The position numbers and the translations under genes were made by a program. From Novosphingobium sp. Gsoil 351 (lineage in GTDB: Bacteria; Pseudomonadota; Alphaproteobacteria; Sphingomonadales; Sphingomonadaceae), in assembly GCF_009707465.1 (NCBI RefSeq), contig NZ_CP046120.1, forward strand, positions 1,269,501 to 1,333,500: a DNA stretch of 64,000 bases, given 5' to 3'. Every line of letters starts with the position of its first letter. Position 1 is the first letter of the stretch. The notes below the pieces were generated by a model. The model saw only the letters and a program-made list of their open reading frames with translations. It had not been told where the DNA came from and ran no database searches. Of this stretch, positions 11,228 through 62,936 are shown piece after piece.

Positions 11228-11243
11228 ACCTATATAACTAGGT
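11228..11243. promoter_or_regulatory. Candidate regulon operator, acyl-CoA dehydrogenase operon
   Basis: ACCTATATAACTAGGT has 5-bp inverted arms (ACCTA/TAGGT) around a TATA-rich centre and lies 24 bp before the start of the dehydrogenase operon. Its core TATATAACTAGGT is identical at 16745 and 42161. Confidence 0.65.
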
Positions 11244-11294
11244 AATATAAGGTCAAGGCGTGACCGCGCCGGGGGGGTGGGGTTGTTCGAGAAG

Positions 11295-12854
11295 TCATTT
11301 GGCGTGTGCCAGGCTACGAGCCCGCCGTCGCAACTCTTGCTTGAGGACTTTACCGATTGCGTTGCGGGGCAATTCGGAGACGATCTCCAGTCGCTCGGGC
11401 GCCTTGCCGGGCGCCGCGCCAACGGAGGAGAAATAGGAGCGCACCGACGCAATCGTCGGTTGCGGGCCGAAACCGGTAACGACGAAGGCGCAGACGATTT
11501 CTCCCAGACGCTCGTCGGGGGCCGCGACAACAGCGGACTCGGTGATGTTCGGATGCGTGAATAGCACGTCCTCTACCTCGCGCGAGGAGATGTTCTCGCC
11601 GCCCCGGATGATCACGTCCTTTATGCGGTCGGTAATAACGAGATAGCCTTCCGCGTCGCGGCGGCCGATATCCCCGGTGCGGAACCAACGGTCGGGTAGA
11701 AACGCCTGGGCGTCGAGGGCGGGGTCGAGGTACCCTTGGAATAGCTCCGGACCACGCGTGACCAATTCGCCTTCCTCGCCCTCGGGCAGCTGGCGCCCTG
11801 CCTCGTCGACGAAAGTGATTTCGCATCCGCAGGTCGGGCGGCCTTCGCTTCCCAGCCGCTTCGCAATTGGATCGTGCGGATTCCCCGCAGTGACCGTTGG
11901 ATGCTCGCTGGATCCATAGCTGCGGTATGGGCGCAAACCGCGAGCCTCTGCCCGCGCAATGAGGCCGGTCGGGACAGGAGCGGCCCCGACCAGACAATTG
12001 ACGAGGCTCGACAGGTCGCGACTGTCACGGTCGGCAGCATCGAGAATCCCCTGTAGATGGAAGGGGGTGAATGAAGCCGAGTTGATCGCGAAGCGTTCGA
12101 CAAGTTCGGCCGCAATCGCGGGATCCCACTGGTCGGTAAGCACAAGCTCTGTTTGCCCTGCCAGGAACCGCATTAACGTGATTGCCCCGGCAACATGGCC
12201 CGGCGGCCATGGCGAGAAAACGCGTTCGACTTCCAGCTCGCGACGCTCCCAATTCGTCGCCACGATCTCGGCCAGCAAGGAGCGATGCGAATGGCGCACC
12301 CCCTTGGGATCGGCCGTGGTGCCGGAGGTGTAGACCAGCATCGCCATGGTCTCGGGATCGACTGTCATTTTAGGAACCGGTTCGCAGGGCTGCTCAAACA
12401 CACTCCAGGACAAAGCTTCAGATGGAGCTTCCCCGATTACGATATGGTGCTGGAGCGTTGGCAAGGATCCGCAATCCGCCAGGATGCGCACGAAGTCTGC
12501 TTTTCGGAAGCGGTCGGGGGTGATGAGAACTTTTGCCTTGGACTGGCGCAGGATGAAGCCGAGTTCCTTCGCACGGTAGGTCGACACCACGGGAAGCAGA
12601 ATAGCACCGCAGCGCGCAATCGCGACGGCTGCAACAAGCCATTCCGACCAGGCTGGCAGCTGCACCGCGACAATGTCTCCAGGCTCCACACCCAGGCGGT
12701 GGAGCGCCGATCCCACTAATTCCCCCCGCCGATAAATCTCTCCTAGTGAGAGATCTGCAGGACGGACTTTTGAAACGACCACAAGACGCCGGTCGGGGCT
12801 GGAGGCAGCGGCCCGCTGGTAAAGCTTATCCAGCGTTGATGCTCCGGCGGTCAT
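11295..12854 (-). CDS. Acyl-CoA synthetase (AMP-binding, class I adenylate-forming)
   Basis: This 519-residue ligase forms an acyl-CoA from a carboxylic acid, ATP and CoA. It shows the P-loop YTSGTTADPKGVRHSHRSLL, the A5-like YRSYGSSEHPTV, the hinge region RTGDIGRRDAEGYLVITDRI, the CoA-binding motif GGENISSREVEDVLFTHP and the catalytic Lys in RNAIGKVLKQEL near the C-terminus. It is the last gene of the operon thiolase-DUF35-CoA-transferase-ligase; its ATG overlaps the preceding stop (TGATG, 12852-12856). The substrate is probably a cyclic or branched aliphatic acid, judging from the neighbours. Confidence 0.88.
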   Translation of the reverse strand: MTAGASTLDKLYQRAAASSPDRRLVVVSKVRPADLSLGEIYRRGELVGSALHRLGVEPGDIVAVQLPAWSEWLVAAVAIARCGAILLPVVSTYRAKELGFILRQSKAKVLITPDRFRKADFVRILADCGSLPTLQHHIVIGEAPSEALSWSVFEQPCEPVPKMTVDPETMAMLVYTSGTTADPKGVRHSHRSLLAEIVATNWERRELEVERVFSPWPPGHVAGAITLMRFLAGQTELVLTDQWDPAIAAELVERFAINSASFTPFHLQGILDAADRDSRDLSSLVNCLVGAAPVPTGLIARAEARGLRPYRSYGSSEHPTVTAGNPHDPIAKRLGSEGRPTCGCEITFVDEAGRQLPEGEEGELVTRGPELFQGYLDPALDAQAFLPDRWFRTGDIGRRDAEGYLVITDRIKDVIIRGGENISSREVEDVLFTHPNITESAVVAAPDERLGEIVCAFVVTGFGPQPTIASVRSYFSSVGAAPGKAPERLEIVSELPRNAIGKVLKQELRRRARSLAHAK

Positions 12855-16719: not shown

Positions 16720-16741
16720 TCGGCACTCCTCTGCTGCCCAT

Positions 16742-16757
16742 ACATATATAACTAGGT
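16742..16757. promoter_or_regulatory. Candidate regulon operator, thiolase operon
   Basis: ACATATATAACTAGGT precedes the thiolase GTG by 22 bp. Read towards the gene it is ACCTAGTTATATATGT, preceded 18 bp upstream of TATATA by TTGCCA, a possible -35 box. The core is identical to those at 11231 and 42161. Confidence 0.65.
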
Positions 16758-16788
16758 GTTACATCCCTTGGCAAGAGGAGTGTCGTAC

Positions 16789-18008
16789 CTAAGCGAAATG
16801 CAACCGCCGATATTTCCCGCGAAAATAAAGCAACGGATCGCGCCGCGGCTCAAAATGAGCGCACGTGACCTCGCCGACGAGGATGAAGTGGTCGCCCGCC
16901 TCGTGAACGGCGGCGCGACGGCACTCAAACGAGCTCAGTGAGCCCGAGAGCACCGGCACTCCTGACTCACCGTGGCTCCAGTCGGTCCCGGCAAATCGGT
17001 CCTGGCCTTTGCCAGCAAACAGGTTGGAGACCGGTTGCTGCCCGATTTGGAGAACGTTGACCGCGAAGGACTCGACCTCACGAAGTGCCTGAGCACTGCC
17101 CGCGCCGTTGGCTATGCACACCAGCAGAAGCGGCGGATCCAGTGAGACCGATGTGAAACTGTTGGCAGTAAGTCCGATTGGCGCGCCGTCGGCTCCATGC
17201 GCGGTAACGACCGTCACTCCGGTGGCAAAGCAACCGAGCGCATCGCGCAAGGTCCGCGCATCCGAACCGGCCCGGAACTCGATCTCGTCCCTGGGTTGCT
17301 TGCGTTCGAGGAAGGCGAGCAGTATCGCATTGAAGGCCTCGGTACGGTCGCCCACCACGAGATGACCCGCATCCTCAACGTCGAGCCGCTCCGCATCAGG
17401 CAGTTGCGCAACGAAGGCGTCGGCGTCCTCGCTGCGGTCGAGCCGCGCCATGCCGCCGCGGACGAATAATGTCGTCACATTCAGCTTTGGAGCGACTTCG
17501 AGAAGGCGATCGGCCACGAGGTTGAGAGGGAAGCCGGCAACCGCTCGAGAATCCCACTTGGGATCGGCTTGATCTGCCAGATCTTGCAGGCGCGCGCGGA
17601 GCCGTTCCGAGGCCTCGGGATCGCTGCGGGCGGGCATGTCCACAAGGACCAGCGCCGCCGCCAGCAGCGCAGCGTCGCCCTCGAGCGCGACCGCCGCGAT
17701 CCACGCGCCCAGCGAGGCCGCGACAACCACGGGTCGCCCCCGAGCTGGGCTAGCACGGCGCGAAGATCCGCCGCGTGGGCGCTCAGGTCGTAGCGGCCGT
17801 CGGCGGGCCATTCGCTTCCCCCGTGCCCCCGTAAGTCGAGCAATATTGCTCGCCGTCCCGCATCCACCAACGCGCTGGCAATGTCGCTCCAGACTGCTCG
17901 AGTTTGTCCAGCGCCGTGGACAAGCAAGACCCCGGGATCGCGGGCATCACCTAGGATTTCAGCCTCGAGGCTGACCCCGGCAAACCCCGTAAATTGCACA
18001 ATGGTCAT
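16789..18008 (-). pseudogene. Alpha/beta hydrolase fused to flavin reductase; one homopolymer frameshift
   Basis: The N-terminal part is an alpha/beta hydrolase: DPGVLLVHGAGQTRAVWSDI with the oxyanion loop, AILLDLRGHGGSEWPADGRY, the nucleophile elbow VVVAASLGAWIAAVALEG, and a late His in VEDAGHLVVGDRTEAF. The C-terminal 165 residues are a flavin reductase domain: LRDALGCFATGVTVVTAHGA, IGLTANSFTSVSLDPPLLLV and HFILVGEVTCAHFEPRRDPL. The two parts lie in different frames; one extra base in the C run 17737-17741 joins them (LAQLGGRPVVVAASLG) into 406 residues. The fusion would couple reduced-flavin supply with hydrolysis. Its ATG overlaps the stop of the GntR gene (18005-18008), so this operon is coupled to its regulator. 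Confidence 0.75.
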
Positions 18009-18700
18009 CGTTCCGCCACTCCCGCCTGGACAAACCATTCCTCCAGCAATGCCGATCGGCGACGCATCAGCAGACGCGCTATATCCTCGTCACCTTCGAG
18101 CACTGCCTTGCAGATCGCTGCCTGGAGTTCGCGAGCTTTGCGTCGATCTTCCGACGCGCCAAAGAAGCGGATCCGCTCCTCCTCCATTCCGAAAGTGTGG
18201 CCGATCGCCATCACGAGTTCGATTGCAGGATTGCCGGTCATTCGGGTGAGAAGCGCGACAAGATCATTTTCCGCCCTGACTGTGTCCCCCGGGGTTTCGG
18301 CGTCAGGAATGGTCTTCGCGAACTCAGCCAGTTCGAGGCGAAGTCCAGGATCGGTGCAACGGGCGGCCAAGGCCCCGGCCTGCTCTGCGATCAAGCTATT
18401 GACCACAAAAAGGTCATGCAAGGTCGCCCCGTTGAGCCGGAGGTACCGCGCGACCGCCCGGACCGAATCGGTCGCGTCGGGACGATCGGAGTATAGCCCG
18501 CCGCGCTGTCCGCGACGGACGCTGATCAGGCGGTCGTTCGCGACCATCTTCGCCGCCTGGCGCAGGGTCGGGCGGCTCACTCCAAAGCGTTTCAGCAGAT
18601 CGTCCTCGCTCCCGAGGTAGCGGCCGTCCTCACCTTCGAGGCTCAGTTCGGCAAGCTGGCGGGCGGTGCGATCAACGCGAGTAGGGGGTGCAGTGGTCAT
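18005..18700 (-). CDS. GntR-family (FCD) transcriptional regulator
   Basis: This 231-residue protein has an N-terminal winged helix (LGSEDDLLKRFGVSRPTLRQ, then AAKMVANDRLISVRRGQRGG) and an all-helical FCD ligand domain (LHDLFVVNSLIAEQAGALAA; ENDLVALLTRMTGNPAIELV; ARELQAAICKAVLEGDEDIA). FCD regulators bind small acids or acyl compounds. It is the first gene of the minus-strand operon with the hydrolase-flavin reductase and is divergent from the amidohydrolase at 18820. The space between holds two copies of AGATATCT, which are its likely operators. Confidence 0.88.
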   Translation of the reverse strand: MTTAPPTRVDRTARQLAELSLEGEDGRYLGSEDDLLKRFGVSRPTLRQAAKMVANDRLISVRRGQRGGLYSDRPDATDSVRAVARYLRLNGATLHDLFVVNSLIAEQAGALAARCTDPGLRLELAEFAKTIPDAETPGDTVRAENDLVALLTRMTGNPAIELVMAIGHTFGMEEERIRFFGASEDRRKARELQAAICKAVLEGDEDIARLLMRRRSALLEEWFVQAGVAER

Positions 18701-18708
18701 AGGCTTAT

Positions 18709-18716
18709 AGATATCT
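18709..18716. promoter_or_regulatory. Palindrome AGATATCT, candidate GntR operator 1
   Basis: A perfect 8-bp palindrome, followed by CTTTAGC, 9 bp before the GntR start. The downstream copy at 18762 shares AGATATCT plus TTAGC at the same distance. Confidence 0.5.
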
Positions 18717-18761
18717 CTTTAGCCCATATGTCAAGATTATGTTGCCGCGTGGCCCATTAAC

Positions 18762-18769
18762 AGATATCT
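18762..18769. promoter_or_regulatory. Palindrome AGATATCT, candidate GntR operator 2
   Basis: The second copy lies 53 bp from the first (about five helix turns) and 50 bp before the divergent amidohydrolase. AGATATCT-NN-TTAGC is common to both. Equal helical phase would allow looping or cooperative binding. Confidence 0.5.
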
Positions 18770-18819
18770 AATTAGCGACTCGCGGCGACCACTGACGCCA
18801 AAAAAGCAGGAGAGGCACA

Positions 18820-19934
18820 ATGAAATCCTTCGTTTTCAGCGCCGATAGCCACATCATGGAGCCGGCCGATATCTTTCTCGAAGGACTCCCCGCGAGCTTG
18901 AAGGACCACGCTATTTACAGCCGCAAGGAGGGTGAGTTCCTGATCACCGGGACTAAGGACAAGGTCATCCACCGCCTGCGCGTGGGCCAGCACCGCGAGA
19001 AGGACCTCGGCGACGTCCAGCGCAAAGGCATTCGCGAAATCCCGGGCCGACTCGAGGACATGGAACTCGAAGGCGTGGATGCCGAGATCTGCTTTCCAAG
19101 CTTGGGCCTGTGGCTCTACTGCCTTGACGACCCTGAGGCGGAGGCGGCCTCGGCGCGGCTCTACAACGATTGGAACGACCGATTCTTAGGCACCTATCCC
19201 GACCGTTTCGTACGCTGTGGCATGCTGCCGGTGCTCGACTTCTCCAATACTCTTGCCGAGATCGATTACCTGGCGAGCAAAGGCTTCACCGCGGCAATGT
19301 TGCCCGCGACCACCCCGGCCGGACTGCCCAAATACAACGACGAGGTTTGGGATCCGATCTTTGCACGCGCCGCCACGAAGGGGCTGGTTTTCGTGCTGCA
19401 CACCGGCACGGGGCTTGCCACGGTGGTGGTCGAGCGCGGCCCGGGCGCAGCAATAATCAACTACACCAATCAGGCAATGGACGCTCAGATCAGCGCTATG
19501 TACCTGGTTTCGGGGGGGTGCTTGAACGCAATCGCGGAGCCAAAGTCGCGTTCATCGAAAGCGGCGCTTCTTGGCTGGTGGCGCTAGCCGAGCGGATGGA
19601 CGAGGTCGAGGTCGCGCATTCCAATTTCGTCAGACCCAAGCTCTCGCGCCGTCCCAGCCAGATTATCGACGACCAGGTCTGGGCGAGCTTCCAGCACGAT
19701 CGCGCCTGCATCATCGCCGCTTCTGCCGGACTTCCGGGTGCAAGGAATGTGATGTGGGGATCGGACTATCCCCATGCGGAGGGAACTTTCCCGATCAGCC
19801 GTCGCGTTCAGGAAGAACTGTTCGAGGGTATTACCGTTTCCGAGCAGGTCCGACGTGACATTCTGGGGCTGAACGCCGCGCGCCTATTCCGGATTGCGCC
19901 AACCGTCGCAACCAGTGAAAAGCTGGCGGCGTAG
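18820..19934 (+). pseudogene. Amidohydrolase-2 family metal-dependent hydrolase/decarboxylase; one frameshift
   Basis: The family (ACMSD-like) performs hydrolysis or decarboxylation on a TIM barrel with a divalent metal. Seen are FSADSHIMEPADIFLEGLPA (N-terminal DxH), ELEGVDAEICFPSLGLWLY, NDRFLGTYPDRFVRCGMLPV, VLHTGTGLA and, in the second frame, RNVMWGSDYPHAEGTFP with the late Asp. The frames join if the G run 19512-19518 has eight instead of seven G (YLVSGGVLERNRGAKVAFIE), giving 371 residues. A ribosome binding site (GCAGGAGAGG) precedes ATG 18820. It is divergent from the GntR gene, with shared operators, and so probably belongs to the same small regulon as the hydrolase-flavin reductase. 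Confidence 0.8.
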
Positions 19935-20009
19935 GGAGCTACGCGCATGCAGCGCGTGGCAGACCTGCGCCGATCGAAGGCGCATCCGGATACTGCGGTG
20001 TTTCCGCGG

Positions 20010-20042
20010 TTCGAGCGGACGGATTAGGGCGTCCGCCTCGAA
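20010..20042. terminator. Hairpin downstream of the amidohydrolase
   Basis: TTCGAGCGGACG pairs with CGTCCGCCTCGAA around an 8-base loop, with one bulged G. There is no U tract, so it may be a weak or Rho-assisted terminator, or just a spacer hairpin. Confidence 0.3.
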
Positions 20043-20184: not shown

Positions 20185-20604
20185 TCATGTGGAGAGGCTG
20201 AAGCCGTCCTTGGCGGCATGCTGGTTGAGGTAATTTTCGATCACGTCATCGGTGATGTTTCCCGAGGTTGTCGAGAAGTAGCCCCGTTGCCAGAAGCGCT
20301 GTCCCCAGTATCGTTTGCGGATGTGGTCGAACTCCTGCTGGATCTTGCGTGAGGAGCGGCCCTTGGCGCGACGCACAAAGTCACTGACGACAACGTGTGG
20401 TGGTATCTCGACGAACAGGTGGACGTGATCGCGCGACAGCGCGCCCTTGACGATGGTCACTCCCAATTCGGCGCAGAACTGCCGGATAATCTCACGCACC
20501 CGGAGCCGAACGTCGCCATGCAGCACCTTGTACCGGTACTTGGGCGACCAGACGATATGGTAGCGGTGGTGGAATTTCGTGTGACTGCCGGTCGAATGCT
20601 CCAT
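20185..20604 (-). CDS. tnpA: IS200/IS605-family Y1 transposase TnpA
   Basis: This 139-residue single-strand transposase has the HUH motif H60-V-H62 (LSRDHVHLFVE) and a candidate nucleophile Y125 (VIENYLNQHA). The N-terminus TKFHHRYHIVWSPKYRYKVL and the middle part FVRRAKGRSSRKIQQEF are typical of the family. In well-studied members the Tyr is followed by Gln at +4; here Gln is at +3, so the exact catalytic set should be compared with close relatives. The start ATG and its ribosome binding site (GAGGAT) lie inside a 28-bp perfect inverted repeat. Confidence 0.92.
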   Translation of the reverse strand: MEHSTGSHTKFHHRYHIVWSPKYRYKVLHGDVRLRVREIIRQFCAELGVTIVKGALSRDHVHLFVEIPPHVVVSDFVRRAKGRSSRKIQQEFDHIRKRYWGQRFWQRGYFSTTSGNITDDVIENYLNQHAAKDGFSLST

Positions 20605-23322: not shown

Positions 23323-25775
23323 CTAAAACTTGACGGAGGCGGTCACGCCGTAGGTGCGCGGCTCGTTGTAGGTGGCAGATATGTACCCAACCGGCGCCAC
23401 AAGCTGGTTCTGGACGAATTCACGTTCATTGGTCAGATTGCGGCCGAACAGCCCGATCTCGAACCGATCGAGGAATTCGACCGAGACGCGCGCGTTGAGT
23501 AGCCCCAGCGATGGCCCTGTCGTTGCGGCGACAATCGCACCATTCTCCGGATTTGGAGCGTAATTGTACGTATCCAGAGGAACCTTGCCGCGCCACGCGT
23601 AATCGGCATGGAGGTTAATCTCGGCGTCATCTCCGACCGGTCGACTGTAGTCCGCCCCAAGTGCAAACTGCTTCTTGATCACTGCGCTGAACCGCTCGAA
23701 TGAACGATCGCCGGTAAGGTCAGCATACTTTACATACTTCGGATCGATTAAGGAACCAGAGACCGAAAGTGTCAGACCCTCAGCAACCAAAGCGGTGATT
23801 TCGGCTTCGGCTCCACGGAATCGCGCTTTACCTGCATTTCCCAGAACCGTTGCAGCACCGCCGACGCCGCCCGGGGCGGGGATCAGCGTCGAACGTTGAA
23901 TGTTTTTCACGTCTGAGGTGTAAGCAGCCAGATTCACACGCAGGCGCCGATCCAGAAATTCACCTTTGAAACCAACCTCATAAGAGTAAGCTGTCTCAGG
24001 CTGGAACGGAATGAGGAAGGCCGCGGACGGGGCGCGCAGATTTTGTCCGCCCGAGCGGAAACCCTTGGCCGTCTTGACATAGAGCAAAATATCTTCGGAC
24101 GGCTTGTAATCCAGTCCGGCAGTGTATGACCAGCCGGAGAAGTTATCTCGGCGCTTTATTGCACATTGAGGCGCGGCTACGATTTCGGGCCCGATCACGA
24201 CTGGTACGCCCGCGATAACAGAGCAAGCTGTCGCGCTGGTGATCCGATTAAAATTATTATTTCGGCTTTCGAGCCCTTTGTCGTCGACCGAATATCGACC
24301 CCCACCCGTGAACGCGAGTTCGTCAGTGATGTGGTACGTCGCTTGCGTGTACATCCCGATGCTATCGTTATCGATGCTGCCCCAAACGTGACTGGTTTGC
24401 GGATTAAGCGTGGGCGCCGTGATGGAAAAAGATTGTTCGAAGCCGCTTTCATGAAAGGCAAAGGCGCCAACTGCGAAGTCGAGCGCATTGTCGAGGGCTT
24501 TTCCGGTGAACTGAAGTTCGGCCGATTGTTGCTTCACTGACTGCTGGCTCTCAGTGAAGTGAATCGGAAGGGCGGTCCCTTCGAGGTCGATACCCGAGAA
24601 GGAATCGATCTTACGGTAGCTGAGGATAAGCTTTGCTTCCCCCAGCCGGTGTCAAGCCTGCCGGTCGCGTTGTAGGTTTGCGTCTTGGCATAGACGTAAG
24701 GCACTTCGTTGTTCGCGGTAATACGCCCACCGTTAGCCAGACGGGCGATCTCAGTGTTGAGAATGCCGAGACCGACTGCAGGCGCCGTGACTGCGGACGC
24801 GCCATTCGCCAAACCAGCAAAACGAGCCGCCGTGTTCGCCGTATTATACGTCGAATTGGCGCCACTAAACGAACCAGTAACATAAGCCAGATTGCGGCTC
24901 GGCGCAACCTCATCTAGCTTAAAATATTCTCCAGAGAGTAATACGCTGAAATTATCGGTAGCCTGTACTAGAACCTTGGCGCGCGCCTGCCAACGATCGC
25001 GGTCATCCGCCTTGATACCATTGAGATTGCCCGTGCGGGGCTGCCGCTCCACGACCGCGGTGCCGAGGGGAACGATGCTGGCGGCAGTAGCAGGAACGCT
25101 GTTAGTGGTATATCCGTCACGGGAGAACCGCTTTCCGGCTAAACGGATCGCAATTTTCTCACCAAGCGGAATATTGACCACGGCCGTCGGCTCGTACTCG
25201 TTGAAGCGCCCGTAACTCGTGGATAGTTTGCCGCTAAATTTGCCCAGTTGGGGATCATTGGAATTGATCAGGATTGCGCCACCCGTGGTGTTGCGGCCAA
25301 ACAGTGTGCCCTGTGGCCCTTTAAGGACCTGGACGGAATTGATGTCCAAAAGGTTGGCATTCAGACCGTACGCACGTGCCCAGTAAACTCCGTCGACATA
25401 GGTCCCGACCGAAGGATCGAGCGTTATGAGGGTGTCATTCTGCGCTTGGCCGCGCAAGGATACCAGGATGCCCGCAGGGCTATTCGCACCGGACCGCATG
25501 TACATCCCCGGGGTGAACGCGGCAATGTCCTGAACGCGGATGACAGACTTCTTGTCGAGTTCCTCGCCCGACAACACGGTCACTGCAACCGGAACTTCCT
25601 GAAGGTTCTCGTCAACCTTGCGGGCCTGGACGATGATCTCCGATAGCCCTCCTTCGGTGCTTTCCGTTGCCGTTTCATCGGCTGGAGCCGCCTGGGCGCA
25701 TGCTGGTGCGGCGATCCCAATGGCAGCAACCCCGCTCAGCAGGAATACGGAAATAGGCGTGACGATCTTGCGCAT
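23323..25775 (-). pseudogene. TonB-dependent outer-membrane receptor; one homopolymer frameshift
   Basis: TonB receptors import large or scarce substrates across the outer membrane. The signal peptide is MRKIVTPISVFLLSGVAAIG up to ACAQA. The plug domain shows LQEVPVAVTVLSGEELDKKS, AGILVSLRGQAQND, QVLKGPQGTLFGRNTTGGAI; the barrel ends with the aromatic C-terminus YGVTASVKF. The frames join if the C run 24639-24643 has six rather than five bases (DTGWGEAKLILSYRKIDSFS), giving 817 residues, normal for sphingomonad receptors. ATG 25775 has GGAGGAGA upstream. A candidate operator lies 46 bp before the start and the sulfatase follows downstream, so uptake of a sulfated compound is plausible. Confidence 0.85.
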
Positions 25776-25821
25776 GACAGGCTCTCCTCCCGGGAAGCAT
25801 ATGCGCGCTTCCGCTCCGAGT

Positions 25822-25834
25822 TGTATAACTAGGT
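25822..25834. promoter_or_regulatory. Candidate regulon operator, TonB receptor-sulfatase operon
   Basis: TGTATAACTAGGT, within AGTTGTATAACTAGG, is the same as at 34282. Towards the gene it reads ACCTAGTTATACA with TTGTGC 17 bp before TATACA, a possible -35/-10 pair. Confidence 0.6.
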
Positions 25835-25874
25835 GGTCTAGGATGCACAAGCCGTTTTTGAGTTTTTCTGCAAA

Positions 25875-28667: not shown

Positions 28668-28695
28668 TTGCCAACATAGTTCACTTAGTGCAATA
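28668..28695. promoter_or_regulatory. Divergent promoter element, ligase / P450 operon
   Basis: A 28-bp element matches the one at 62909-62936 at 25 of 28 positions. It begins TTGCCAACATAG and ends TTAGTGCAATA. In the direction of the P450 gene TTGCCA and CAATAA are 17 bp apart, a plausible -35/-10 pair. The centre CACTTAGTG is a variant of the regulon core. Confidence 0.65.
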
Positions 28696-28728
28696 ACTCA
28701 TTTAGAGGGTGCTTGATGGGACGAGACG

Positions 28729-34154: not shown

Positions 34155-34497
34155 ATAATCGCTCCCTTAGCTTTCAGGCACCCAGCCGAAATTTACCGAA
34201 TTGGCGACTGCACCGCATCTCGTCTCTCACCACTGGCTCATGGTCGCCCGCACAATTCCACTGGAAACATATTCCCATAGTTGTATAACTAGGTACTACA
34301 GGACTTTGAGCGAATGATCAAGGCAAAGGTGCCAATTCGCGAATATGACCACGCTGGCATGATATCATCAGAGGGCGGTATGGCCCATGGGCGCTACCGG
34401 TTGCCCGGGTGGCAATTGTTGGACCAGTACGCAGCGTGGAGTCTCTTCGCTTAAGCGCAGTCGTGCAGGCCACCCAAAAATTCGTTGCCGTCCGGCG
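34155..34497. other. Intergenic region with operator and long leader
   Basis: This 343-bp stretch lies between the small protein gene and the end of the GntR gene, both on the minus strand. It contains the operator at 34282-34294 and an untranslated leader of about 125 bp before the small gene. Short open frames to the right of the operator have no coding features. I see no RNA gene. Confidence 0.45.
34282..34294. promoter_or_regulatory. Candidate regulon operator, small protein-ligase operon
   Basis: TGTATAACTAGGT within TAGTTGTATAACTAGG; identical over 15 bases (AGTTGTATAACTAGG) to the site before the TonB receptor. Confidence 0.6.
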
Positions 34498-35280
34498 CTA
34501 GCCGCCAATCGAATCTACAACGCGGCTCCCCTCGTCGCCACGTGTCCAGGCTTTATTGGCATTACGCAAATGTAGTCGCCAGTGCTCGACAGCGGCCTCA
34601 ACATCCCCCGCCTCGATCAACTCGACGAGTTTGCAATAAGATCGATAACCAAGCTCTGCCGCCTTGTTCCGCTCTGCTGCTTTCCGTGGGTGTCGTTTTT
34701 CGAACTCGACCTGATGCTTGAGCGCTAGGTTCGACAACATCCGGTTGAGGAATGTGAGCGTCTTGAGATTAGTGCTCGCTACCAGCGTCCCGTGAAAGAC
34801 CTCAACATGTTGAATGAACTCGTCGAAATGGCCATCCTCTATCATTCGCCGCATCTCGGCGAGCAGATTACGCAACTTGACCGTCGCGCTGCGGTCTTGG
34901 TCGGTCGTAAGCCAACGCACGACTGAAGGCTCGATCGCCAACCTCGCGTGATAAAGGTCTGCGATCGTCGTACCTTGCGACTCCAAGACGTAGCCCGCGT
35001 AGCGCGCGACAAGGTCGGCCGAGGGTTTGTGGACTCGAGCACCGGTGCGAGAACCCCGGATGACGCTTATTAGCCCTTCGGCCTCAAGAATCCGAAACGC
35101 TTCACGCAACGTCGGTCGAGAGATCCCAAGGGTTTCCATAAGCTGGCCCTCGGGAGGCAGGAATTCGCCCTCGCTGCGGTCGCCTCGGACGATCTGCCCG
35201 CGGATCTGGTCGGCAACGATTTCGCTTGTCTTTGGAACGCGAATGCGAGAGTTGGTCCCTTCTAGCTCGTTGCGCGCCAC
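34498..35280 (-). CDS. GntR-family (FCD, FadR-like) regulator, candidate master regulator of the island
   Basis: This 260-residue protein has a winged helix (SEIVADQIRGQIVRGDRSEG, LPPEGQLMETLGISRPTLRE, AFRILEAEGLISVIRGSRTG) and an FCD domain (LYHARLAIEPSVVRWLTTDQ; FDEFIQHVEVFHGTLVASTN; ELIEAGDVEAAVEHWRLHLR) with Asp/His residues of the usual metal or acid-binding pocket. The ATAACCTAGT element lies 39 bp before its start, as it does before most operons of the island, so autoregulation and control of the whole island are likely. FCD regulators commonly respond to CoA thioesters or acids, so an early intermediate is a reasonable inducer. Both points are inference. Confidence 0.85.
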   Translation of the reverse strand: MARNELEGTNSRIRVPKTSEIVADQIRGQIVRGDRSEGEFLPPEGQLMETLGISRPTLREAFRILEAEGLISVIRGSRTGARVHKPSADLVARYAGYVLESQGTTIADLYHARLAIEPSVVRWLTTDQDRSATVKLRNLLAEMRRMIEDGHFDEFIQHVEVFHGTLVASTNLKTLTFLNRMLSNLALKHQVEFEKRHPRKAAERNKAAELGYRSYCKLVELIEAGDVEAAVEHWRLHLRNANKAWTRGDEGSRVVDSIGG

Positions 35281-35316: not shown

Positions 35317-35326
35317 ATAACCTAGT
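35317..35326. promoter_or_regulatory. Candidate operator in the GntR promoter
   Basis: ATAACCTAGT is followed by GAACTTGGTTTTATAACT, which contains a second TATAAC. It lies 37 bp before the regulator start, suggesting autoregulation. Confidence 0.6.
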
Positions 35327-35519
35327 GAACTTGGTTTTATAACTAAAGCTTTATTTGCGGTCCCAGCATTTATCGCGTTCAGGCATCGGCTGCGTCAGCC
35401 GCAAGCGTCGTCGGGCGACGAGCCGCCGTCTCGGCCCATGCAACCAGCCGCATTCGCAAGTCATGGGGCCGTCCCGTATTCGGCTATGTTCGAGGATCGG
35501 GACCCCGACCGAAGCAGGC

Positions 35520-42138: not shown

Positions 42139-42160
42139 CGCCTGCTCCCTTGCATCCACA

Positions 42161-42173
42161 TATATAACTAGGT
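42161..42173. promoter_or_regulatory. Candidate regulon operator, divergent MaoC operon / ligase
   Basis: TATATAACTAGGT lies 22 bp before the MaoC start and 34 bp before the ligase start on the other strand, so one site could control both. Confidence 0.65.
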
Positions 42174-42207
42174 AATAGAAGCGGAGAGACGAAGCAAGGG
42201 GTTTTGC

Positions 42208-46128: not shown

Positions 46129-46557
46129 TCACTTCAACGTCTTGAGTGCGTCAAGCATTCGCACGAAGTGGAGGGCGTCCCAGACATCCTGGTCTTCTCC
46201 CCAGCCCACCCTGCCGTCGAAGTCCCAACGCATAAACTGGTTGGTGCCATAGCCCGCTTCGCTCATCTGGCTCATGGCCATGCCTTCGGCGGTCGTCTTC
46301 CGCCCAACGAGATCGGCCATCTCAACCTGCATGTGGGCGCTCCAGGCGGTTTCCGGGCTCCGGAAACAACGCATTCGGCTGATCGCCTTGTTGAGCGAAC
46401 CGTATGCGCCGTCGCGCAAGAGGTAGCCCCCGTTCATCGGGCTCCAGCCTTCGGCATCGCCATTTGTGGCCGGACAAAGCCGAGGAACCCGTTTTGGCCG
46501 TCGGCGTGTCTGGCCTTCTATTGCCAGGCGCAGGTCAGGGCGAATCACGCTTGCCAT
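46129..46557 (-). CDS. Unknown 142-residue protein, first gene of a dehydrogenase operon
   Basis: The protein runs from MASVIRPDLRLAIEGQTRRR to the C-terminus VWDALHFVRMLDALKTLK, with SPETAWSAHMQVEMADLVGR and NQFMRWDFDGRVGWGEDQDV in between. It has no signal peptide or membrane segment and no motif I recognise. ATG 46557 has GGGCGGGAA upstream and the regulon element starts 13 bp further upstream, which would lie inside the gene if an earlier ATG were used. Its place before an acyl-CoA dehydrogenase pair suggests an accessory role. Confidence 0.6.
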   Translation of the reverse strand: MASVIRPDLRLAIEGQTRRRPKRVPRLCPATNGDAEGWSPMNGGYLLRDGAYGSLNKAISRMRCFRSPETAWSAHMQVEMADLVGRKTTAEGMAMSQMSEAGYGTNQFMRWDFDGRVGWGEDQDVWDALHFVRMLDALKTLK

Positions 46558-46571
46558 TTCCCGCCCAGTTG

Positions 46572-46619
46572 TATAACCTAGTGCCATATCATTCACATTA
46601 TGCGGCGAAGGTGTCAAGC
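46572..46619. promoter_or_regulatory. 48-bp promoter block with regulon core
   Basis: Read on the minus strand it begins GCTTGACACCTTC and ends ACTAGGTTATA, matching 54124-54171 at 41 of 48 positions. It serves the minus-strand unknown gene-dehydrogenase operon and perhaps the divergent thioesterase operon. Confidence 0.65.
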
Positions 46620-46648
46620 TTGGCTTATCAGGGCGAACGTTCGGGACA

Positions 46649-47080
46649 ATGAGGCCCTCTGCCGACCGCCTTGTCGCCGAACGATTCCCGCGCCGGATGC
46701 CCGTTCCGGTCCGTTTTGCCGACATGGACATGTTTCGGCACCTCAACAACGTCGCTGCGGGGCAATTCTATGAGGAAGGGCGCTTTGCGATTCTGGCCGA
46801 GGCTAACGCGCGCGTGCCCCGCGAAGAGCGACGATCGCTTGTCGTCGCGAGTGTCCACACCACCTTCCTGGGCACGGCTCGCTATCCCGGCAAGATCGAC
46901 GTTTGCACCGGCATTGTCGAAGTTGGCATTAAATCGTTCGTGATCGGCCAGTCCCTGTTCGTCGAACAACGCTGTATCGGAACAGCCGACACAACCGTCG
47001 TCGCTACCGACCCCGATGGCGCATGCCCCCTGCCGGCAGTGCTTGTTGTGTACCTTCAAACACTGCTCATAACTCCGTGA
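46649..47080 (+). CDS. Acyl-CoA thioesterase (4HBT hotdog family)
   Basis: This 143-residue hotdog protein has the motif VRFADMDMFRHLNNVAAGQF, YEEGRFAILAEAN, with the conserved Asp and the HLNN turn of 4HBT/YbgC-like thioesterases, and SVHTTFLGTARYPGKIDVCT as the next strand. It would release a free acid from an acyl-CoA and recycle CoA. It is followed 46 bp later by the dehydratase-like gene in the same direction. Confidence 0.82.
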   Translation: MRPSADRLVAERFPRRMPVPVRFADMDMFRHLNNVAAGQFYEEGRFAILAEANARVPREERRSLVVASVHTTFLGTARYPGKIDVCTGIVEVGIKSFVIGQSLFVEQRCIGTADTTVVATDPDGACPLPAVLVVYLQTLLITP

Positions 47081-47126: not shown

Positions 47127-48641
47127 ATGAACGCCCTGCACGTCCACCCGCACGAGGAATCGGCCGAGCGCCGCTGGTCAAGGTTCAAGCCGATCCGCTC
47201 GGGCGAAGACTACATCTCCTCACTTCGCAACCGGGGCACCGACCTCTATTTGTTTGGTGAAAAGGTCGCCGAGCCGGTCGACCATCCAATCATTCGTCCC
47301 TCGATCAACGCGCTGGCTATGACTTATGACCTGGCGCTGGAGGACCCCGATCTCGCCACGGCGCATTCCGAACTCATCGATGCGCCGGTCAACCGCTTCC
47401 TCCATATCGTCGGAAGCCCGAACGACCTAGTGATGAAGAACAGGATGCAACGCCGGATGGGTCAGCTTACCGGCACTTGCTTTCAACGCTGTGCTGGCCT
47501 CGACACGGTCAGCGTGCTTCACTCCCTTACCTGGGACATCGACGCAGCACACGGCACCTCCTATCACCAGCGCTACCTCGAATTCATGCGCCACGCGCAA
47601 GCGAATAACATCGTCATCGGTGCGGGTATGACGGACCCCAAGGGCGACCGTTCGAAGCGTCCCTCCGAGCAGGCCGATCCTGACATGTTCATGCACGTCA
47701 CCCGCCGCACCGAGCACGGGATTTATGTCCGCGGGGCCAAGGCGCACATGACCGGCGGATGGAATTCGCACTGGATCGCCGTGATGCCGACGATGAATCT
47801 CGGTCCGGGGGACAAAGACTATGCGGTTGTCGGACTCGTCCCGGTGGATGCAGCGGGGCTAACTTTTATATACGGTCGCCAGTCATGTGACACGCGCGCA
47901 ATGGAGAGCGGCAAGATCGACCAGGGTAACGCGCGATTCGGCGGGCAGGAGGCGCTGGTCGTATTCGATGACGTGTTTATCCCCCACGAGCATGTGCTCA
48001 TGGACGGCGAGTACACCTTCGCACAGCTCATGGTGTCGCGCTTTACCAGTTATCATCGGGCTTCGTATGTTTGCAAAACCGGGCTGGGCGATGTGATGGT
48101 CGGTGCCGCAGCGGCTATCGCGGAATACAACGGCGTGGACCAGGCCAGCCACGTCAAAGACAAGTTAGTAGAAATGACGCATCTTAATGAGACCATCTAT
48201 TCGTCGGCGATCGCTTCGAGCCATGAGGCCAAGCAGCTCGCGTCGGGTATTTTCATGAACGACGAAATGCTCGCTAATGTTTGCAAGCACAACGTTACTC
48301 GCTTCCCATACGAGATCAGCCGACTTGCCCAGGATCTGGCCGGCGGGCTCATGGTGACCCTTCCCTCCGAGCAGGAATTCGAAAGCGAGGTCACCGGGCC
48401 CATCTTGCGCAAATATTTGCAAGGCCGCGCCAATGTGCCGATCGAGCACCGACAGAGAATGTTGCGCTTGATCGAGAACATGACGCTGGGCCGCAATGCC
48501 GTGGGCTACCTCACCGAATCCCTCCACGGTGCGGGCAGTCCGCAGGCCCAGCGCATCCAGATCCAGCGGCAAATGGACGTCGAGAAAAAGAAGAAATATG
48601 CCCAGAACCTCGCTGGCATTGGCGAGGAATCTGGAAACTAG
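47127..48641 (+). CDS. 4-hydroxybutyryl-CoA dehydratase / HpaB-type flavoprotein
   Basis: This 504-residue protein belongs to the fold shared by HpaB monooxygenases and the [4Fe-4S]-FAD 4-hydroxybutyryl-CoA dehydratase. The C118xxxC122 pair (LTGTCFQRCAGLDTV) and H310/C316 (SYHRASYVCKTGLGD) correspond to cluster ligands Cys99, Cys103, His292 and Cys299 of the clostridial dehydratase. H to C is 6 residues here and 7 there. VKDKLVEMTHLNETIYSSAI and VTGPILRKYLQGRANVPIEH also fit the dehydratase branch. It would act on a 4-hydroxyacyl-CoA or isomerise a beta-gamma enoyl-CoA. An HpaB-like monooxygenase lacking the cluster is less likely because the ligands are present. Confidence 0.75.
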   Translation: MNALHVHPHEESAERRWSRFKPIRSGEDYISSLRNRGTDLYLFGEKVAEPVDHPIIRPSINALAMTYDLALEDPDLATAHSELIDAPVNRFLHIVGSPNDLVMKNRMQRRMGQLTGTCFQRCAGLDTVSVLHSLTWDIDAAHGTSYHQRYLEFMRHAQANNIVIGAGMTDPKGDRSKRPSEQADPDMFMHVTRRTEHGIYVRGAKAHMTGGWNSHWIAVMPTMNLGPGDKDYAVVGLVPVDAAGLTFIYGRQSCDTRAMESGKIDQGNARFGGQEALVVFDDVFIPHEHVLMDGEYTFAQLMVSRFTSYHRASYVCKTGLGDVMVGAAAAIAEYNGVDQASHVKDKLVEMTHLNETIYSSAIASSHEAKQLASGIFMNDEMLANVCKHNVTRFPYEISRLAQDLAGGLMVTLPSEQEFESEVTGPILRKYLQGRANVPIEHRQRMLRLIENMTLGRNAVGYLTESLHGAGSPQAQRIQIQRQMDVEKKKKYAQNLAGIGEESGN

Positions 48642-49329: not shown

Positions 49330-49414
49330 CAGAGTTCAATTCGGATGAAGAGATATTCCATGAAATGTTGCGTGACCGCCGGGAATCGCACTTGCGATTA
49401 ACTTGCTCATTTAA

Positions 49415-49424
49415 ATAACCTAGT
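49415..49424. promoter_or_regulatory. Candidate regulon operator, enoyl-CoA hydratase
   Basis: ATAACCTAGT within TTTAAATAACCTAGTAATATT, 35 bp before the hydratase start. Confidence 0.6.
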
Positions 49425-49459
49425 AATATTGCGGACGTCGTGTCCGGGGAGTTTCAGGG

Positions 49460-53960: not shown

Positions 53961-54335
53961 CGTCGTATTCTCAATCTTAGCGAGGCAATGCTCAGTTACG
54001 TTGTGCCCGACGCTGGTCAAAGCCTACGGAAAGCAGGCCTAGCCTGCTACATCGCGATTTGGGTAAATTCGTACTCGTGGCCACAGGAGCCAGGCCGGCG
54101 CACGAGATCGGCACAGAAGTCATGCTTGACACCTTCACGGCTTAATGTGAGTGTTATGCTACTAGGTTATATACGTGGCGAGACATTGGCAAGCGGGATT
54201 CTCATGCTCGATCAATCTTTGACAGTCCCTCGCCTCATTGCCGTACGCGCGCTTCATCGGGACGGCAGCCAGCACAAGCCGCCGGCTGAAAGAGTAGAGA
54301 GGTCTTGTTCGGCGGGTAAAGCTCGATCGGCGATA
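53961..54335. other. Divergent intergenic region between MaoC-sulfatase operon and FGE gene
   Basis: This 375-bp stretch holds the 48-bp promoter block at 54124-54171 and an untranslated leader of about 160 bp before the FGE start. The frame upstream of the FGE ATG is open but shows no protein motif. Confidence 0.5.
54124..54171 (+). promoter_or_regulatory. 48-bp promoter block, FGE / MaoC-sulfatase divergent region
   Basis: It starts GCTTGACACCTTC, contains TAATGTGA and ends ACTAGGTTATA, matching 46572-46619 (opposite strand) at 41 of 48 positions. It is placed between a sulfatase operon and the FGE gene. Confidence 0.65.
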
Positions 54336-55331: not shown

Positions 55332-55560
55332 ATGCTGCCCGTTGGCGTGCTCGGTCACGTGAATCGGGCGCGAACTGATGAGTACCGCGAGCTAGACCAC
55401 ATATCCACCAAGCAAGAACCCCTAACCGAATCACCGGACACCGCCATGGGCCTCGTCGAGGTTTCGCAGCCCGCCGGAGTCAGTACCCGCGGGAGCACAA
55501 ATTCTTCGAGGTTCAGATAGTCGTTTGAGGCAAGCTCGACTCCACGATCAACCTGTGATA

Positions 55561-55579
55561 CCTAGGTCACTAGGTTATA
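55561..55579 (+). promoter_or_regulatory. Candidate regulon operator (double core), WS/DGAT operon
   Basis: CCTAGGT is followed by C and ACTAGGTTATA, i.e. two cores in tandem, 24 bp before the gene. TGTGA occurs 10 bp before the second core, as in the blocks at 54124 and 46572. Confidence 0.65.
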
Positions 55580-55603
55580 TATGTAGGTTCAGGGGATGTT
55601 ACA

Positions 55604-59696: not shown

Positions 59697-59697
59697 C

Positions 59698-61188
59698 ATG
59701 GCCGAACTTCACCAGCTGACCTCAAGCGACGCGGCGATGCTGTTCCTCGAAACGCCGGACACGCCGAATCACATCGCGCCGCTCATCATCTGCGATCAGT
59801 CCACCGTGCCGGGTGGCACCACGCTGCGCCTGCGACAAATCAAGGCTAAAATGGAACGGGCCCTCGATGGCGCGCCAAATTTCCGCCGACGGCTAGTGCG
59901 TCCGCCGCTCGACATCGACAACCCCTACTGGGTTGACGATCCGAACTTCGACCTCGACTTCCACTTACGCCATCTTGCCTTGCCTGAGCCCGGTGATTGG
60001 CGGCAGCTGTCGATTCAGGTGGCCCGGCTGCTCTCTCGCTCGCTGGATCCGAACCGGCCATTGTGGGAAATGTACGTAATCGAAGGACTGGACCGGGTTG
60101 TCGATCTCCCGCCCGGGGCGTTTGCCGTCCTATTGAAAATTCATCATGCAATGATGGACGGCATGGGGGCGATGTCGCTGATGGATGGAATGTTTGATCG
60201 CTCTCCGCTGCAACCGCCCGAGCCGTCGGCAGCGAAGTGGCGTCCCCAACCTGGGCCGCATATGACTGAGATAATATCCCGCGGCTGGTTGAATGCCGGC
60301 CTTCGCTTTAGCAAAATCGGGGTACGATTGAATGCCCTTGCTGCCAAAGCCGTGCGCGAACGGCTATCCGGCCCCACAGAAGAATCACCGATTCCCGCCA
60401 ACGCAGTGCCAAAGACCCCATTTAATGGCCCTCTGACCCCGGCGCGTGTCTATGACCTGAAACAATATCCACTCAAGCGCATCAAATCATTACGGTCACT
60501 GGTTCCCGGCTCAACCGTAAATGATGTCGGGTTGGCGCTCATCACCGGCGCGCTCCGGCGCTACCTGATAGGCCGAAATGCCTTACCCGCGGACAATCTG
60601 ATCTGTGCGGTACCAGTGTCGATCCGAAGCGAGGCCTCTAGAAACAAGCCGGCCGGCAACGAAATTTCGGCTATTTATACCCCGATCCCCACAGGGACCG
60701 AGGACCCACTGGAACGATTGCGCCTGATCGCTGCGCAGATGGCCCAGCAAAAGGTTCTCGACCGTGCGCTGAGCGCGCGCAGCTTGGTCGATTTGACGTC
60801 TGAGTTGCCGGGCACGATGGGTGGGCTGATCAGCCGTGGGATGACCGCCATTGGCGATCGAAGGGGCCGGGCGCTTATCGCCAATACGTTGGTCACCAAC
60901 GTTCCGGGAATGTCCGCACCGATGTATTTCTGCGGAGCTCGGATCGTCAATATCGTCGGCGGCGGACCCTGCGTCACCAACATGGGCCTGATCCATCTGA
61001 TCGGGAGCTATTGCGACTTGTTCAACATCAACGTCGTGGGTTGCCGAGACCTGGTTCCGGACATAGGGTTCTACATGGAGTGCGTCGAAGACAGTGTGGC
61101 CGAATACTTTGATCTATACGCAGCCCTAGTCGGGCACGATGTGACCTCCTCACCTGTTTCTCGCCGGACTAAGAAAAAAGCGCTCTAA
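59698..61188 (+). CDS. WS/DGAT-type acyltransferase
   Basis: This 496-residue enzyme starts MAELHQLTSSDAAMLFLETP and has LLKIHHAMMDGMGAMSLMDG (HHxxxDG), VNDVGLALITGALRRYLIGR, CAVPVSIRSEASRNKPAG and VTNVPGMSAPMYFCGA. It is the third WS/DGAT paralogue of the window and the last gene of its operon. The N-terminal sequence resembles 55604-57043 more than 36449-37816. Confidence 0.88.
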   Translation: MAELHQLTSSDAAMLFLETPDTPNHIAPLIICDQSTVPGGTTLRLRQIKAKMERALDGAPNFRRRLVRPPLDIDNPYWVDDPNFDLDFHLRHLALPEPGDWRQLSIQVARLLSRSLDPNRPLWEMYVIEGLDRVVDLPPGAFAVLLKIHHAMMDGMGAMSLMDGMFDRSPLQPPEPSAAKWRPQPGPHMTEIISRGWLNAGLRFSKIGVRLNALAAKAVRERLSGPTEESPIPANAVPKTPFNGPLTPARVYDLKQYPLKRIKSLRSLVPGSTVNDVGLALITGALRRYLIGRNALPADNLICAVPVSIRSEASRNKPAGNEISAIYTPIPTGTEDPLERLRLIAAQMAQQKVLDRALSARSLVDLTSELPGTMGGLISRGMTAIGDRRGRALIANTLVTNVPGMSAPMYFCGARIVNIVGGGPCVTNMGLIHLIGSYCDLFNINVVGCRDLVPDIGFYMECVEDSVAEYFDLYAALVGHDVTSSPVSRRTKKKAL

Positions 61189-61199
61189 TATTCAATTGT

Positions 61200-62725
61200 T
61201 TACCCTCTCGGGGAAATACGAGGAAGTCTCGGACCAAAGGATCGCCGCATCCGCGTGTCACGTCTATCGACCGCTTCATTCTCAAGCCGAACTAAGTGGG
61301 CGTTGAGCGCCTTGCTCACCGATATAGCATTACGGATCTGCTCGATCCGGGGCCACGTAGCTCGCCGCCCCTCGGCTATCAGTTTCTGGATTTCGGCATC
61401 ACTTGAGAACTTGAAAAGTGAGTGCTTCAGACTGCGCGCGTTAAAGCTTGCTTCGATCGTGATATCGCCGGAGACAGTCTGATCGGCGACGCGATAGAAA
61501 TACTCAAGCCAGGCGTCGGCCCCATATCGATTAATCCCCCACGGTGAGCGTTGCGCAAGCTTGGCACCCTCGCGCAGCGCACCGAAGAAGAGGTTGCTCG
61601 ATTGATAGATCACTCCGTCCTTTCCGGATTTGGGGTCGGCACGGAAAAACGGCGTCATCAAGCTCATGGGATTTATCTGGCTGACAATAGTGTGATTGAC
61701 CGCGTAGAGTCGCTGCAGCCGCTTCAACGGAAGATCGTCTGCCAAGGCACCGTCGATCCAGCGCTGGTTGGGCAAGTATGGCACGATCTTGCCGCTGCGA
61801 TCCTTGGCTTCAAGCATCGACGGTTCCACAAACTGCGGCACTGACGAGGTCGCATGGCAGGCGGAACGCAGCGTGACGTTGGGCGAAGTGATCGCATTGA
61901 GGAGGCGACTTCTATGATGCCGATCGGGCGAAGCAATTGAAATATTGATCATTCGCCCAGTGTGTTCATACGCCTCTGCAAAAGTCATGTCGTCTACAAG
62001 CTCCTCGATGACTTCCCGCCTTGATTGATCGAGTTGGCTATCGGCCCGCACCTTTCGCCCCAAAATAGCAGCCCATGGAAGACCATTTTTGCCTACCAAA
62101 TTATAGCGTTTGGCGTCGAGATACCCTGTGAGCTGCTCGTCGGTGCGCGTACCGAGCTGCGCGCAAAGCCAACCACCGGCGCTGGATCCTGACAGCACAT
62201 CGGGCAAAACCCCCTCACCGAGCAACGCATCGACCACACCGTGATGGAAATATATCCGCCCCCCCCACCGCTCAGCATAAGCGCAGAGCGACCGTAGCAG
62301 AGGGAGGCCCTCTGGAAAAAATCGAGCTTCTCGCCAAAGGCCACTTCATTCTCGGGTGATCTGGCAACCACATCCAGCGCTTCAATTATTGCCGCGACGT
62401 ACTGCGGTATCAAATCCTTCGTGCCGTACTTCGAACGGGCATACAGTTCCGGATTTCCCATCCCGCCCATGTTGCCGTGAATGCCCTCGCTAAGAATATT
62501 GAGCAGACCTTCGCCGTCGCGAGACTCCACACTCTGACGCAAGGAATCCTGCCTTCTTCGGATGTCTGCCGCATCGAACGAGCCATCTACTTCGTCCGCC
62601 TTCCATGCGTCAGCACCGGAGACCCGGTCACAACTCTTGGCGGCGGCGCTCCATTCGGCATAGGTCCTTGCCGGAACTCGACGGTTTGGCGTGTTCGACA
62701 CGGTCTCGCCTTCGAGGTTTGCCAT
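61200..62725 (-). pseudogene. Patatin-like phospholipase with DUF3336 domain; frameshift in the active-site loop
   Basis: The N-terminal frame has a DUF3336-like helical part (RTYAEWSAAAKSCDRVSGAD; GNMGGMGNPELYARSKYGTK) and RSALMLSGGG. The other frame continues HGVVDALLGEGVLPDVLSGS, SAGGWLCAQLG (GxSxG nucleophile) and WIDGALADDLPLKRLQ with the catalytic Asp (DGA). The C run 62259-62266 has eight bases; nine would give LMLSGGGGRIYFHHGVVDAL and 508 residues. The miscall or mutation falls exactly in the glycine-rich oxyanion loop. Patatin/TGL4-type enzymes hydrolyse triacylglycerol or steryl esters, which fits the WS/DGAT operon next to it. Confidence 0.8.
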
Positions 62726-62754
62726 CGACAACACGTTCTTCCCCTACTTATCAT

Positions 62755-62765
62755 ACTAGGTTATC
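62755..62765. promoter_or_regulatory. Candidate regulon operator, patatin gene
   Basis: ACTAGGTTATC lies 29 bp before the patatin start. Read towards the gene the element is GATAACCTAGTATGATAA. Confidence 0.55.
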
Positions 62766-62908
62766 TATCATGAGGGATAGCGGGCCGATGCTCGGATAGC
62801 AAGCTGTCCGGGTCCCCTTCCCACAAGTCTCCGCACGCTTGTATGCCCTCCCCCATGTGCTGCCGACGACGTGTGTATGCTTTCATTCAAGCTATTTGCT
62901 TGCACACC

Positions 62909-62936
62909 TTGCCTACATAGTCCACCTAGTGCAATA
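62909..62936. promoter_or_regulatory. Second copy of the P450-type promoter element
   Basis: 25 of 28 positions match 28668-28695, beginning TTGCCTACATAG and ending CTAGTGCAATA. It precedes a fragment of an SDR gene and the full SDR at 63075. Confidence 0.65.

Follow-up and report, generated by a model that had tools for sequence, protein, structure and literature searches.

A Pfam scan of 50 open reading frames (ORFs) of the window, by which we mean the whole 64,000-nt stretch of Novosphingobium sp. Gsoil 351 DNA analysed here, revealed an island coding for several acyl-CoA dehydrogenases, five acyl-CoA ligases, a CoA transferase, ChsH2-like, thiolase/lipid-transfer and MaoC-like proteins, three WS/DGAT acyltransferases, a P450, an aldehyde dehydrogenase, two sulfatases, a formylglycine-generating-enzyme-like protein and a TonB receptor. 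The P450 has its nearest relatives in the CYP101 group, and the thiolase matches a lipid-transfer protein. The HpaB-family protein encoded at 47127-48641 is a relative of vinylacetyl-CoA isomerase/4-hydroxybutyryl-CoA dehydratase (742 bits to 6vjr), for which reason steroid ring degradation was rejected as a function of the island; the scan assigned none of the 50 proteins to a ring-cleavage family. The predicted gene products suggest a pathway that degrades, by CoA-linked steps, a bulky lipid, terpenoid or steroid-like ester or sulfate.

Several reading frames of the island are split or overlap. The TonB receptor gene (23323-25850) is split into ORFs of 438 and 404 aa with a 4-nt overlap, whereas each of its six best matches in relatives is one ORF (821-926 aa); it is either a pseudogene or the product of a sequencing error. 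The acyl-CoA dehydrogenase at 10112-11204 also consists of two overlapping ORFs, its best matches in relatives being single (362-375 aa), and at 61200-62734 DUF3336 and patatin domains lie on two ORFs with a 145-nt overlap, possibly another frame break. An IS200-like transposase gene (20185-20604) separates the amidohydrolase block from the sulfatase genes.

Two putative transcriptional regulators of the GntR type and two copies of a short palindromic element are of interest here:

34498-35280, minus strand: GntR1, with Pfam GntR and FCD domains, the proposed operator-binding regulator
18005-18700, minus strand: GntR2, a second GntR/FCD protein and the rival regulator
18709..18716: AGATATCT, part of the predicted operator type of GntR2 itself (approximately TAAANAGRTAYCTNTTA)
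18762..18769: a second AGATATCT, toward the divergent amidohydrolase gene

GntR1 exceeds the cut-offs for both PF00392 (58.0 bits) and PF07729 (57.1 bits) and so has the architecture of an FCD-type GntR protein. Its predicted fold (mean pLDDT 84.4, pTM 0.72) has a helical C-terminal domain, residues 1-16 being of low confidence.

A 25-bp palindrome upstream of the island operons

The sequence-only reading had described a recurrent element made of the heptamer ACTAGGT, or its complement ACCTAGT, beside a TATA tract. All the sites that it listed are present, TATATAACTAGGT being identical at 11231, 16745 and 42161 and TGTATAACTAGGT at 25822 and 34282. The heptamer was rejected as the unit of the motif: a matrix that started from the window sites and was refined by iteration over island DNA of six related genomes yielded instead a 25-bp palindrome, ASWTRTWTAAC-YWR-GTTAWAYAWST. 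Its centre, ACYWRGT, can be read as either ACTAGGT or ACCTAGT. The window contains 13 such palindromes, with scores of 21.4-31.1, which we consider as candidate operators (coordinates, centre, matrix score, neighbouring genes and distance to the start codon):

11228..11252, centre 11240, score 31.1: acyl-CoA dehydrogenase operon (minus strand), GTG at 36 nt
16742..16766, centre 16754, score 28.0: lipid-transfer-protein/thiolase operon (minus strand), GTG at 35 nt; 6 of 7 orthologues likewise have an upstream site
25819..25843, centre 25831, score 25.8: TonB receptor/sulfatase operon (minus strand), ATG at 56 nt
28674..28698, centre 28686, core ACTTAGT, score 28.8: between divergent genes, an acyl-CoA ligase gene (minus strand, ATG at 34 nt) and the P450 gene (plus strand, GTG at 43 nt)
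34279..34303, centre 34291, score 26.9: upstream of the minus-strand 34154/33816 genes
35320..35344, centre 35332, core ACTTGGT/ACCAAGT, score 28.8: GntR1 promoter, GTG at 52 nt
42158..42182, centre 42170, score 29.9: a single palindrome between divergent genes, a MaoC-like gene (minus strand, ATG at 32 nt) and an acyl-CoA ligase gene (plus strand, ATG at 38 nt)
46567..46591, centre 46579, score 26.8: 46129-46557 gene (minus strand), ATG at 22 nt, plus two acyl-CoA dehydrogenase genes
49409..49433, centre 49421, score 21.4 (the weakest): enoyl-CoA hydratase gene 49460 (plus strand), ATG at 39 nt; site upstream of 4 of 5 orthologues
54152..54176, centre 54164, score 24.3: formylglycine-generating-enzyme-like gene (plus strand), ATG at 40 nt, with a divergent minus-strand ORF 144 nt away
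55560..55584, centre 55572, score 28.6: WS/DGAT-acyl-CoA ligase operon (plus strand), ATG at 32 nt
62746..62770, centre 62758, score 27.9: DUF3336/patatin gene (minus strand), start at 24-33 nt
62915..62939, centre 62927, score 24.4: SDR gene (plus strand), ATG at 55 nt

For the gene downstream of centre 46579, annotated as an ORF at 46129-46749, the start at 46557 is the likelier one since the first 93-95 residues are unmatched in relatives. A site was correctly attributed to the GntR1 promoter by the sequence-only reading, with a misplaced position: its ACCTAGT at 35320 is an outer arm of the palindrome whose true centre is 35332, and several orthologues read ACTATCT at this arm. The GntR1 promoters of orthologues carry a TAGTTATAAAACCAAGTTYACTATCT-like sequence (73 of the 79 loci were compared).

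The motif is concentrated in the island at every level of description. ACTAGGT occurs 14 times in the 64-kb window (both strands) compared to a mean of 1.41 in shuffled windows, and none of 100 shuffles reached 14 copies. Only 48 copies exist in the whole genome, a single contig of 3,818,329 bp of which the window represents 1.7% (binomial P = 4e-14), and 16 of these 48 lie between 1.28 and 1.35 Mb. The longer string TATAACTAGGT is found six times in the genome, five times in the window and once at window coordinate ~70375; allowing one mismatch adds one site in the window and two places elsewhere. The half-site pattern ASNTRTNNNACYWRGT, which was composed with knowledge of the window sites, matches the genome at 16 places (12 in the window, one just to its right and three elsewhere), compared to 10 for its reversed control; 13 of the 16 fall in one 59-kb stretch, that of the island. 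Matrix matches of at least 13 number 15 in the window versus two (13.6 and 19.2) in 300 kb taken from the rest of the genome. The sequence-only reading was to be refuted if the motif were equally common before unrelated genes, and it is not. Two of the 15 add no operator to the list, as the match at 12744 (15.9) lies in a coding region, probably by chance, and that at 55563 (13.6) partly coincides with the higher-scoring 55572. The exact heptamers at 47425 and 50726, both in coding sequence, do not appear in the set of window matrix matches of at least 8; neither had been listed by the sequence-only reading. The right flank of the window holds one further copy of the palindrome (28.4), and an isolated, fairly strong match (19.2) lies outside the island, ~10.8 kb left of the window (L002:9196).

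In the island set, matches of at least 10 number 149 in 578 kb versus 23 in 450 kb of control DNA, and matches of at least 16 number 104 versus one, the island set doubling as the training set of the matrix. The shuffles, the genome counts and the matrix background together rule out chance or base composition as the origin of the motif. The earlier claim that it precedes almost every operon is a fair one between 11 and 63 kb and fails at two places, as there is no match of at least 13 at 1-11 kb of the window and none before the divergent 18820/18700 pair. We regard both the motif and its confinement to the island as near certain: it is common to the promoters of most island operons and scarce elsewhere, the distribution of a local regulon under a single regulator.

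The palindromes occupy a constrained position relative to start codons. A plausible start lies 22-56 nt from 12 of the 13 window centres, in rough agreement with the 12-50 bp given before; the exception is centre 34291, for which the nearest start found is 137 nt away and whose site is kept upstream of none of the nine orthologues counted. Some palindromes stand between two divergent starts. Among 95 sites scoring at least 18 (window, right flank and islands of relatives), a plausible start was found 15-80 nt away on both sides for 37, on one side for 45 and on neither for 13, whereas the same rule applied to 675 AT-matched random positions gave 28, 197 and 450, respectively (at least one start for 82/95 sites versus 225/675 random positions). 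The median distance of 42 nt between site and start is bounded by the rule itself because starts were sought only 15-80 nt away. With this spacing the TATA-like arm that faces downstream would lie in or close to the -10 region, consistent with the predicted overlap of the site with the -10 box. A constant -35 box was rejected: no -35 partner stands out at one fixed spacing, the upstream TTG counts being spread over several positions.

GntR1 and GntR2 as candidate binders

GntR1 orthologues (at least 64% identity) are encoded by eight of 98 related genomes, own genome included. These eight carry 1-12 copies of TATAACTAGGT (median 6; G000 6, G003 7, G008 6, G017 1, G024 7, G033 12, G049 6, G055 6), whereas 84 of the other 90 have none and six have one. 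G017, with its single copy, is a fragmented assembly that is 75% complete, and G011, one of the six genomes with a single copy, encodes a 52% identical GntR1 relative on the contig with that copy. When the own genome, which is one contig, is set aside, 41 of 45 copies of TATAACTAGGT lie on a contig that carries GntR1. Half-site totals are 11-24 in the eight genomes versus 0-12 (mean 3.8) in the other ninety. Novosphingobium sp. KCTC 2891 (G033) has three GntR1 copies, on contigs C6, C29 and C31, and its 12 copies of TATAACTAGGT are confined to two of these contigs; the locus of the third GntR1 copy has a site at L180:1117, with GntR1 at 2108.

We scanned 77 of 79 GntR1 loci, omitting L112 and L138 in which GntR1 lies at a contig edge. 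All 42 loci with at least 61% identity, 34 of which are outside the training islands, have at least one site scoring 20 or more in the fetched DNA. A site of at least 15 lies within 300 bp of GntR1 in 22 of them; the other 20 belong mostly to Sphingopyxis and kin, and in Sphingopyxis the sites are typically found at about -2.4 kb and -9 kb. Two of the 42 loci (L098 and L099) were counted separately though apparently one sequence: the record titled Gammaproteobacteria bacterium RIFCSPHIGHO2 has the match statistics and site positions of a Sphingopyxis MAG, and its name is probably wrong. Among 22 distant loci of 41-53% identity (L120-L142 without L138), 12 have an own-promoter site (200 bp, at least 15) compared to 2.9 expected. 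The significance of this difference is overstated, as the 200-bp limit and the threshold of 15 were set after the scan of the 77 loci, two loci with no or one matched window were given the mean expectation, and several loci are close relatives. A Sphingomonas paeninsulae plasmid, outside the training of the matrix, encodes a 52% identical GntR1 relative; in the 40.7 kb surrounding this gene, all nine matches of at least 13 fall inside seven of the eight divergent intergenic regions, one of which is the regulator's own. The remote loci L143-L155 (~39-44% identity, mostly Streptomyces at ~40-42%) have no own-promoter site of at least 15 (0/13).

The block at 16.8-19.9 kb, which contains GntR2, had been set aside as an exception with its own GntR and other sites. 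This holds for the window, where the GntR2/amidohydrolase promoter (18700-18820) lacks a GntR1-type palindrome (best score 4.9), and not for the orthologous promoter, since a GntR1-type site of at least 16 lies upstream of GntR2 in 15 of 17 relatives. The block therefore appears to be a regulon member elsewhere whose site was lost here. Of 18 GntR2 loci, 16, that of the window among them, have AGRTAYCT upstream of the gene, and the remaining two have a version of it with one change; the wider form of this palindrome, judged by eye, is TAAANAGRTAYCTNTTA. In five relatives the GntR1-type site is joined with AGRTAYCT in a composite, AAAGATACCTAGTTATATAAGT. Comparison of these promoters suggests an operator swap at that of the window. 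Membership of the regulon turns over more generally, because a site of at least 14 lies upstream of 47 of 71 orthologues of site-bearing genes versus 28 of 109 orthologues of genes that lack one in the window, the amidohydrolase and GntR2 genes among the latter (best matches of at least 40% identity over half the query, seven islands).

That GntR2, or both GntR proteins, bind the palindrome is unlikely. The two share an SRPTLR motif, the promoters of most relatives place the palindrome upstream of GntR2, and the eight genomes with GntR1 are also those that encode GntR2 orthologues, so that co-occurrence at the genus level fails to separate the two regulators. What separates them is that GntR2 is preceded by a different conserved operator, with no GntR1-type palindrome at its promoter in the window, and that GntR1 and the sites are found together where a clear GntR2 is missing, on which grounds GntR2 was rejected as the main binder. 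Six of 22 genomes with GntR1 relatives have no clear GntR2. In four of these, TATAACYWRGT lies on the GntR1 contig (G116 1/1, G117 2/2, G118 1/3 and G119 5/6 matches, counts that include both strands of a palindrome); G119 is a MAG, and GntR2 may therefore merely be missing from its assembly. In the other two, G113 and G114, the GntR1 promoter has matrix matches of 27.9 and 18.6, with TATAACYWRGT distant or on other contigs. TATAACYWRGT totals in the 22 genomes are not above those of a reversed control pattern, and only their clustering near GntR1 speaks, as in G103, where 9 of 11 matches are at most 25 kb from GntR1.

Two further readings dispense with both proteins. The sites could be bound by another regulator encoded outside the island, GntR1 being a mere member of the regulon, as regulators can be; we regard this as improbable given that the site follows GntR1 into other genera, onto a plasmid and to the third copy of G033. 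The element could also be a promoter class for an alternative sigma factor and no operator at all, which would account for its position before start codons and its TATA-like hexamers. The two-fold symmetry of the palindrome and its core, the excess of sites flanked by starts on both sides, the variable upstream TTG and the lack of any sigma factor among the 50 scanned proteins make that reading very improbable. GntR1 is the best candidate, as the sequence-only reading proposed, because it co-occurs with the sites and has one in its own promoter at many loci, the operator of GntR2 differs, and GntR1 and the sites persist without GntR2. On this comparative evidence it is likely that GntR1 binds the palindrome.

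Proposed regulation and relation to known systems

We propose, with a probability of about 0.77, that the palindrome is the operator of a local GntR1 regulon and that GntR1 is a promoter-blocking repressor released by a pathway intermediate. A GntR1 dimer would bind the 25-bp palindrome through its AC-N3-GT centre and AT-rich arms of the ASWTRTATAAC type. Because the palindrome would overlap the core promoter of most island operons, bound GntR1 would most likely block RNA polymerase; repression of this kind, the usual mode, is fairly probable. Release of GntR1 by a pathway intermediate, which may be a carboxylate or an acyl-CoA, would then induce the dispersed operons together. The site in its own promoter would subject GntR1 to negative autoregulation, and between divergent genes one palindrome could serve both directions.

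A more elaborate arrangement is possible but doubtful, in which the palindrome is at once operator and two-way core promoter, the island grew as gene pairs gained this unit, and GntR2 takes part through the composite. Each AT-rich arm would then supply the -10 element for one direction, a single 25-bp unit would switch a divergent gene pair on or off jointly, and the amidohydrolase promoter of relatives would be a composite site read by two FCD regulators. Near-symmetric -10 regions are described as giving rise to divergent transcription at bidirectional promoters of E. coli and Salmonella, with start sites commonly 18 bp apart (PMC12825309, PMC10268837). We take a bidirectional promoter to have divergent start sites 7-25 bp apart that arise from a single symmetric element. 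The symmetry of the E. coli and Salmonella promoters lies within the -10 element, whereas here a 25-bp element is repeated in one island; from their sequence and position, the island palindromes are candidates for such an arrangement.

Returning to GntR1 as a repressor, its best solved relative by sequence is NanR of Escherichia coli (PDB 6on4, 6wfq and 6wg7; profile E 8e-17), with an alignment that begins at residue 15 of GntR1 and residue 29 of NanR, the first helix of GntR1 starting at 18. The NCBIfam NanR model gives GntR1 98.5 bits, below its cut-off of 260. NanR is described as an FCD repressor of several operons that uses direct repeats of the half-site GGTATA and a 32-residue N-terminal extension for cooperativity (PMC8012715). 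The GGTATA half-site resembles the arm RGTTATA of the palindrome. Yet the island site is an inverted 25-bp palindrome and no direct repeat, and in place of the 32-residue extension GntR1 has only ~16 low-confidence N-terminal residues.

FadR, PdhR, LldR and GlcC share with GntR1 the GntR plus FCD architecture and have AT-rich palindromic operators. The consensus given for the FadR subfamily consists of TKGT/ACMA boxes in which GT and AC are typically 3 nt apart, NanR and BioR being named as exceptions (PMC4494728). The order GT-N3-AC of that subfamily is reversed at the island centre, AC-N3-GT, the invariance of which is partly by construction as the sites were chosen by matrix. We file the island as a known kind of system in a new form, that is, an FCD regulon with a non-canonical operator. 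Other repressors of catabolic clusters in sphingomonads are EdcR, an estrogen-dependent repressor of the TetR family from Caenibius tardaugens, and PheR, a phenanthrene repressor from Sphingobium; as described, they act at other loci and on other substrates than those of the island and its GntR1. Literature searches, among them a full-text search for strings of the motif, listed no paper whose title pointed to an earlier account of this operator.

The regulon proposed here would place 60 kb of dispersed acyl-CoA, sulfatase, P450 and wax-ester-synthase-like operons under a single regulator that answers to a single signal, and for this reason finding the inducer of GntR1 would point to the substrate of the island. 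The palindromes also offer a natural set of promoters with which repressor action on two-way promoters may be tested. For the family at large, GntR1 and its relatives would add, across several sphingomonad genera, a group of FCD regulators with a box order opposite to the family rule.
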